Source of the DNA: Hydrocarboniphaga effusa AP103
GTDB lineage: Bacteria > Pseudomonadota > Gammaproteobacteria > Nevskiales > Nevskiaceae
DNA length: 64,000 bases
NCBI RefSeq assembly: GCF_000271305.1
Contig: NZ_AKGD01000002.1
Span: 310,001-374,000, forward strand
Direction of reading: 5' to 3'
Position numbers and translations under genes: made by a program. The notes beneath the pieces were generated by a model. It made no database searches. It worked only from the letters and a program-made list of their open reading frames with translations, and was not told the origin of the DNA. Of the stretch, positions 43,280 through 45,232 are shown in pieces; position 1 is the stretch's first letter; each line of letters begins with the position of its first letter.

Positions 43280-45232
43280 TTAGCGCCGCTTGCCCTTGAG
43301 CTTGCGAAGCACCGCGATCATCGCGTCGATCTCATCGAAGGTGTTGTAGAACGCCACGCTCGGACGCACCGTGGTTTCCTGGCCGAAACGGCGCAGGATC
43401 GGTTGCGCGCAGTGATGGCCCGTACGCACGGCGATGCCTTCCTCGCTGAGCGCCTGACCGACTTCGTGCGTGGTGTAGCCGTCGAGCACGAAGCTCATCA
43501 CGCTGGTCTTGTCCGCCGCCGTTCCGATCAGGCAAAGCCCCGGAATCGTGCAGAGCTGTTCCTGGCCGTATTCCAGCAGCTCATGCTCGTAGCGCGCGAT
43601 GTTCTCGATGCCGATGCGATCGACGTAATCGAGTGCCGCACCCAGTCCCACCGCATCCGCGATATTGCCCGTGCCGGCTTCGAAGCGCGTCGGCGCGCCG
43701 TGATAGACCGTCTTGTCGAAGCTCACGTCGGCGATCATGTTGCCGCCGCCCTGATACGGCGGCATGTGCTCGAGAATGTCGCGCTTGCCGTAGACCGCGC
43801 CGATGCCGGTCGGGCCGAAAATCTTGTGGCCCGAGAACACGAAGAAATCCGCATCGAGCTGCTGCACGTCGATGCGCAGATGCGAGACCGATTGCGCGCC
43901 GTCGATGACGACCTTGGCGCCGTAGCGATGCGCGATGTCGATGATCTGCTTGACCGGAACGACGGTGCCGAGCGCGTTCGAAACCTGCGTCACCGAGACG
44001 ATCCTGGTGCGATCGGACAGCAGCTTCTGGAACTCGTCGAGCCGCACCTGGCCGGTGTCGTCGACCGGAATCACGCGCAGCTTCGCGCCCTTTTCGGCGC
44101 ACAGCATCTGCCAGGGCACGATGTTGGCGTGATGCTCCAGGTGCGAGATCACGATCTCGTCGCCTTCGCGCACGTTCTGCTTGCCGTAGGTCTGGGCGAT
44201 CAGGTTGATGCCTTCGGTGGTGCCGCGCACGAAGATGATTTCTTCGGGCTGCGATGCCCCGATGAACCTGGCGATCTTCTTGCGCGCGCCTTCGTAGGCA
44301 TCGGTCGCGCGAGCGGCGAGTTCGTGCGCGGCGCGGTGGATGTTCGAGTTCTCGTTCTCGTAGAAGTACGAGAGCCGCTCGATCACCGCGCGAGGCTTCT
44401 GCGTCGTCGCCGCGTTATCGAACCAGACCAGCTGATTCTTTCCGCCGTTGACGCGCGTGGCGAGGATCGGGAAATCGCGGCGGATCGCATTCACGTCGAA
44501 CGCGCCGCGGCCCTGCGGAACCGCTGGCGGCGGGTTCGCGCGCGGCGTGCTCAGATCGGTGAAGTAATAGCTCGGAGCGGACGGCAGCGCTGTGGCGGCC
44601 GAACCGTTTTTCGGATTCGAGATCGCAGCGCCCGGCAGGCCCGGAGCGGGCAGTGAAGCTGCGGCGGGTACCTGCGCGGATTGCGGCGGGACGCCCGGCA
44701 GCGCGAACGCCGAGAGCTGCGACAGATCGAGCGCCGGCGCAGCGGCGGAGCTCGTATCGCCGATGAAGTAGTAGGGACTGCTCGGCGGATTCTTCACCGA
44801 GGCCGGCGCGGTCTCGGCCACTGCAGCGGGCGCCTCGGGCACGCCGGCCAGCGGGCCGCCGCCACGCGAATGCATCGGCAACACCGTGCTTTGCACACCG
44901 GGCAGGTCGGCCGACACCGCCTGCGTCGGCAGGATGCGCGGCGTCAGCAGCACCGGAGGCGCCGCGAACTCAGCGGCAGCCTGTGGCGTGGCCTTGAACG
45001 GCGGGGTTGCCGGCAGCGAAGTCGCATACGGCACCGGCGGCAGATGCGACAGCGGCGACACGCCACCGCCCGGCAAGCTGCCGGGCGGGGCGAGCTGCAC
45101 CGGTCGCGTCGGCGCGGTGGGCGCCTGCTGCGCGGCGCCCGGCGGCGTCTGGAACAGCTCCGACGCGAGCAGGCTCAGCGTCGCGTCGTCGGGCAAGCCG
45201 GCGCGGCCGTCGAAGTCCTGATCCGAGGCCAT
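43280..45232 (-). CDS. Cysteine desulfurase, family 2A encapsulin cargo with long disordered N-terminus
   Basis: 650 aa from the ATG at 45232, with AAGGA overlapping the shell gene stop. A GTG five codons upstream is an alternative. Residues ~1-243 are low-complexity, rich in Pro, Ala, Ser and Gly, apart from a helical ATLSLLASELF (17-27) and two YYF boxes: SPYYFIGDTSS (152-162) and PSYYFTDLST (220-229). Residues ~245-650 are a SufS/CsdA-type PLP enzyme: FDNAATTQKP, NSNIHRAAHELA, the PLP lysine in SGHKIFGPTG (K470) and the persulfide cysteine in RTGHHCAQP (C608). Family 2A cargo is loaded into the shell through such an extension and strips sulfur from cysteine. Last gene of the cluster. Confidence 0.95.
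   Translation of the reverse strand: MASDQDFDGRAGLPDDATLSLLASELFQTPPGAAQQAPTAPTRPVQLAPPGSLPGGGVSPLSHLPPVPYATSLPATPPFKATPQAAAEFAAPPVLLTPRILPTQAVSADLPGVQSTVLPMHSRGGGPLAGVPEAPAAVAETAPASVKNPPSSPYYFIGDTSSAAAPALDLSQLSAFALPGVPPQSAQVPAAASLPAPGLPGAAISNPKNGSAATALPSAPSYYFTDLSTPRANPPPAVPQGRGAFDVNAIRRDFPILATRVNGGKNQLVWFDNAATTQKPRAVIERLSYFYENENSNIHRAAHELAARATDAYEGARKKIARFIGASQPEEIIFVRGTTEGINLIAQTYGKQNVREGDEIVISHLEHHANIVPWQMLCAEKGAKLRVIPVDDTGQVRLDEFQKLLSDRTRIVSVTQVSNALGTVVPVKQIIDIAHRYGAKVVIDGAQSVSHLRIDVQQLDADFFVFSGHKIFGPTGIGAVYGKRDILEHMPPYQGGGNMIADVSFDKTVYHGAPTRFEAGTGNIADAVGLGAALDYVDRIGIENIARYEHELLEYGQEQLCTIPGLCLIGTAADKTSVMSFVLDGYTTHEVGQALSEEGIAVRTGHHCAQPILRRFGQETTVRPSVAFYNTFDEIDAMIAVLRKLKGKRR

Follow-up and report, generated by a model that had tools for sequence, protein, structure and literature searches.

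The window, the whole 64,000-nucleotide stretch of Hydrocarboniphaga effusa AP103 DNA that was analysed, carries an encapsulin shell gene directly followed by the gene for its cargo enzyme. The cargo scored 883.8 bits against NF041166, above the curated cut-off of 800, and is by this score a family 2A encapsulin cargo cysteine desulfurase. Aminotran_5 spans its residues 269-637, and the catalytic domain is SufS-like (562.4 bits against TIGR01979 sufS, cut-off 475.1). The shell protein scored 506.9 bits against NF041162 (cut-off 380), and the nearest named shell comes from an uncultured Nevskia. A rhodanese gene and a serine acetyltransferase-like gene lie upstream on the same strand. Within the desulfurase we delimited an N-terminal tail and four short conserved stretches, listed here with the two genes and the basis of each assignment:

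45244..46167, minus strand: family 2A encapsulin shell protein (307 aa; immediately precedes the cargo gene)
43280..45232, minus strand: family 2A encapsulin cargo cysteine desulfurase (650 aa; NF041166 and Aminotran_5)
44501..45232, minus strand: disordered N-terminal putative loading tail, residues 1-244 (pLDDT; start of the catalytic domain in the alignment)
45152..45184, minus strand: helix motif ATLSLLASELF, residues 17-27 (predicted helix 16-28; profile)
44834..44845, minus strand: GVPE stretch, residues 130-133 (conserved; 19th of 240 four-residue windows)
44747..44779, minus strand: distal YYF box SPYYFIGDTSS, residues 152-162 (sequence, alignment, flanks, census)
44546..44575, minus strand: proximal YYF box PSYYFTDLST, residues 220-229 (sequence, alignment, flanks, census)

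The cargo start may be the ATG at 45232 or an in-frame GTG at 45247, which overlaps the shell stop codon (GTGA). In six relatives (L006, L012, L013, L014, L016 and L017) the cargo ATG lies 23 bases before the end of the shell's last codon, so that the two genes overlap; the window junction (45227-45270) is without that upstream ATG and has GTGA instead. Where shell and cargo are in the same frame, separated by a single stop (L045, L053 and L059, for example), that stop was TAA at 36 of 36 loci, against 42 of 80 others, a uniformity that may reflect descent among what are mostly close relatives.

Matches to the desulfurase at an E-value of 1e-200 or better were present in 19 of 58 genomes of the same taxonomic family and in 21 of 397 genomes sampled from the phylum, the window's own genome being counted both times. 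Among the solved chains listed, the desulfurase chain 8kg1_A was far closer to the catalytic part than any other, and it is without the tail; a search for solved structures that include the tail returned two matches only (E 0.29 and 0.98), both to unrelated proteins.

Conserved islands in the cargo tail

A preliminary description of this DNA had proposed that the tail is of low complexity except for three islands, the last two of which share an aromatic formula. All three islands were confirmed at residues 17-27, 152-162 and 220-229 of the product of 45232-43280 (minus strand), and the YYF triplets of the last two, at residues 154-156 and 222-224, are 68 residues apart, as claimed. When the tail was shuffled 20,000 times, two YYF triplets never arose; their pairing is therefore not a matter of chance. 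The proposed formula, S-YYF-(I/T)-x-D-x-S, proved to be out of register: the distal box reads S-P-YYF-I-G-D and the proximal box S-YYF-T-D, and without gaps YYF alone matches. The contrast between islands and spacer had also been drawn too strongly. Composition is indeed biased (19% A and 19% P), but the GVPE stretch is conserved as well and so, more weakly, is TPRILPTQ at residues 97-104 (49th of 236 windows). An F-x-LPG type stretch, FALPG at residues 176-180 (44693-44707), sits between the two boxes and appears as FGLPG in several relatives; it ranked 91st of 239 windows in the alignment.

To place the tail among its relatives we assembled 134 loci, from which 16 without a shell or a catalytic ORF in the stretch were dropped and L018, which duplicates the window gene, was removed, leaving 117 tails; L036 was retained in this census although its stretch has no shell. 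Tails of at least 120 residues (115) were aligned and clustered at 70% into 63 representatives, a step that left out the two shortest tails, L129 and L130, both of them box-free. The expectation that the islands would be conserved relative to the linker was borne out. The four top-scoring tail columns, 223, 224, 155 and 156, hold the Y and F residues of the two boxes; F27 and D15, from the helix region, rank next. Scored as whole ranges, the helix (17-27) ranked 3rd of 233 windows, residues 220-229 10th of 234 and residues 152-162 17th of 233, the wide box ranges falling lower because their outer residues vary. The pattern [YFH]YF occurred 105 times in the 63 representatives, against 0.73 expected from shuffles, and the codons for the invariant Y and F vary synonymously, indicating that the constraint acts on the protein. 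Spacing between the last two boxes had a median of 60 residues (13 to 117; 46 representatives), which makes the 68 residues of the window ordinary. The window desulfurase is itself an ordinary member of its family.

For the census a box was defined as any residue followed by Y-F-[LIVTAMS], and as proximal when no more than 60 residues from the catalytic start. Both boxes were found in 94 of the 117 tails, a figure that describes mainly beta- and gammaproteobacterial relatives rather than the family at large, since the 80 genome contigs that ranked closest to the window's shell supplied 73 of the 117; phyla besides Pseudomonadota were represented by plasmid records only. Another 20 tails had the proximal box only, so that 114 carried at least one box. 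The three box-free tails belong to Aliarcobacter (L129, 2A), Kitasatospora (L130, 2B) and an alphaproteobacterium (L132, 2A). Clustering gave a similar picture (both boxes 47, proximal only 15, none 1; n = 63). Both boxes accompanied 92 of 102 shells at 72% identity or above and 2 of 9 below it. With 2B shells they were never found together (0 of 6; 2B status by model for L039, L130 and L131, and assumed for L040-L042), the proximal box being kept in five, and the remoter and 2B-shell relatives mostly have the proximal box only. Five more distant relatives with no shell in the readable stretch (L002, L043, L044, L133 and L134) have no YF, and 20-61 residues precede their catalytic part. A 2B shell occurred in one of 385 genomes from the class of G223.

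A fixed helix pattern matched 85 of the 117 tails and a profile 103, although the profile was trained on the same tails; some of its 14 misses are due to start codon choice, as L028 and L053 begin within the helix. Cysteine was nearly absent from the 117 tails (2 of 28,179 residues, against 201 of 47,050 in the catalytic parts).

Two types of box and their known counterparts

Judged by their flanks, the boxes are of two types, a distal type with the consensus S-P-(Y/F)-Y-F-L-G-(E/D) and a proximal type with P-x-(Y/F)-Y-F-(V/T/L/A)-D. Two or more boxes were present in 48 of the 63 representatives, and the flanks of their two boxes differ. Across these 48, P immediately precedes the triplet of the distal box in 36 and L follows it in 37; in the proximal box P stands two positions ahead of the triplet in 24, V follows in 19, and the position after that is D in 34. 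Three clear boxes were seen in L006, which is from the window's genus, and in L008 and L015.

Much of this has precedent. A 2021 study of this cargo family already gives both motif types, LARLANEFFS and AASPYYFLDG (PMC8049743), and the window cargo has the long disordered N-terminal domain with both motifs described there. CyD of Synechococcus elongatus PCC 7942 (Synpcc7942_B2661), the cargo of SrpI, belongs to the same family and likewise places a disordered tail, with a helix-like motif and a YF box, before a SufS-like domain; where the window cargo has two boxes and one helix, CyD has two helix-like stretches and a single box, FYFIDE, of the proximal type. The family 2A cargo of Acinetobacter baumannii (L126) resembles the window cargo in having a distal box (SPYYFLND), a proximal box (FYFLDL) and a single helix motif; its linker sequence differs, and its shell is 75% identical. 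The work of Benisch and others on a sulfur-storing encapsulin may cover parts of this feature.

Among 2B cargos, terpene cyclases carry GPTGLGT, a short conserved motif in a disordered tail that has been proposed as a shell address (PMC8346489). Its sequence is unlike the YF boxes, and such a motif can be read beside the 2B shell in L138. The three 2B desulfurase tails read from Streptomyces and Kitasatospora (L130, L135 and L136) have no xYF box, in contrast to five Methylobacterium-type 2B cargos with one box each. RYWL replaces the YF box in the tails of Kitasatospora (L130) and Streptomyces clavuligerus (L135).

The literature searched, including passages of PMC8049743, gave no description of two box types or of how many copies occur. 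The feature is well conserved and mostly known; what we add is the census of two box types, for which no priority is claimed.

How the tail may load cargo

According to PMC8049743, reporter loading in Synechococcus was best with the whole tail and less good with residues 1-100, while fragment 155-183, which includes the YYF-type motif, gave no loading; cargo density was seen at the threefold axis, near shell residues F262 and Y273, and desulfurase activity was unchanged after removal of the whole tail. The preliminary description had taken the islands for docking motifs of the shell interior. Their conservation relative to the linker fits this, but the box fragment was insufficient for loading, and we consider shell docking by the boxes no more than plausible. 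Because residues 1-100 load and 155-183 does not, the helix region is favoured over the boxes as the better supported loading tag.

We therefore weighed a loading arm of several parts, to which we give about even chances. The N-terminal helix motif would chiefly direct the cargo to the shell; the YF boxes would make auxiliary, weaker contacts with the shell interior, adding avidity and keeping the enzyme close to the wall. Of the two types, the proximal one is the more widespread and the distal one is typical of gamma- and betaproteobacterial relatives, with a third box in three tails. We infer contact between boxes and shell, joint action of several boxes, and the order of their origin. Support for the loading arm comes from the box YF columns being the most conserved of the tail, with the helix columns next; from the contrast between the 114 of 117 shell-linked tails that are boxed and the five more distant relatives that have neither a shell in the readable stretch nor YF; from the excess of [YFH]YF and the synonymous codon variation; and from the better loading, in the Synechococcus study, by the full tail than by residues 1-100. 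It is weakened by the failure of fragment 155-183 to load alone, by L132 and L129, whose shells are 2A and whose tails have no box, and by the shell residues. Box number showed no relation to the shell residues equivalent to F262 and Y273: L takes the place of SrpI F262 in 15 shells, and the cargos of these carry two or three boxes, so that a simple pairing of boxes with F262 is not supported.

The predicted fold of the cargo alone had a confident helix at residues 16-28 (block pLDDT 75-79), with residues 34-241 below pLDDT 50 and both boxes disordered. A fusion of shell and tail was predicted with a mean pLDDT of 37 and an unfolded shell, and was uninformative on docking.

It is unlikely, in our estimation, that the helix alone addresses the shell and the boxes act as aromatic stickers between cargos, bringing desulfurase dimers together ahead of shell assembly or in its course. 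Aromatic islands set in a proline- and alanine-rich spacer, and the insufficiency of the published box fragment, are what such stickers would lead one to expect, yet the strict conservation of position and flanks within each box type exceeds what they need. We hold it distinctly unlikely that the boxes dock on the desulfurase, its dimer or a partner such as the rhodanese, positioning the active site or passing sulfur: although the last box lies near the catalytic part (median 34 residues; 60 representatives) and a rhodanese gene is close by, the disorder of both boxes in the cargo-alone model speaks against their packing onto the monomer that carries them, and activity in Synechococcus survived removal of the tail. 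Least probable, and very doubtful, is that the boxes are interchangeable repeats that serve solely to increase valency towards one shell site; most relatives examined have two and some three, but their conserved flanks differ and some systems carry one box or none.

The loading arm, if it operates, bears on the choice of cargo by family 2 encapsulins. It might further amount to an evolvable valency code, with the proximal box common to 2A and to some 2B cargos, the distal box serving a second site on proteobacterial shells and a third box present in the window's relatives. We think this improbable; if true, the set of boxes would tune how densely, or in which orientation, cargo sits at the shell wall. 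With a helix and two short motifs that differ and can be separated, such an arm would lend itself to a well-defined mutant series and could serve to load foreign enzymes.
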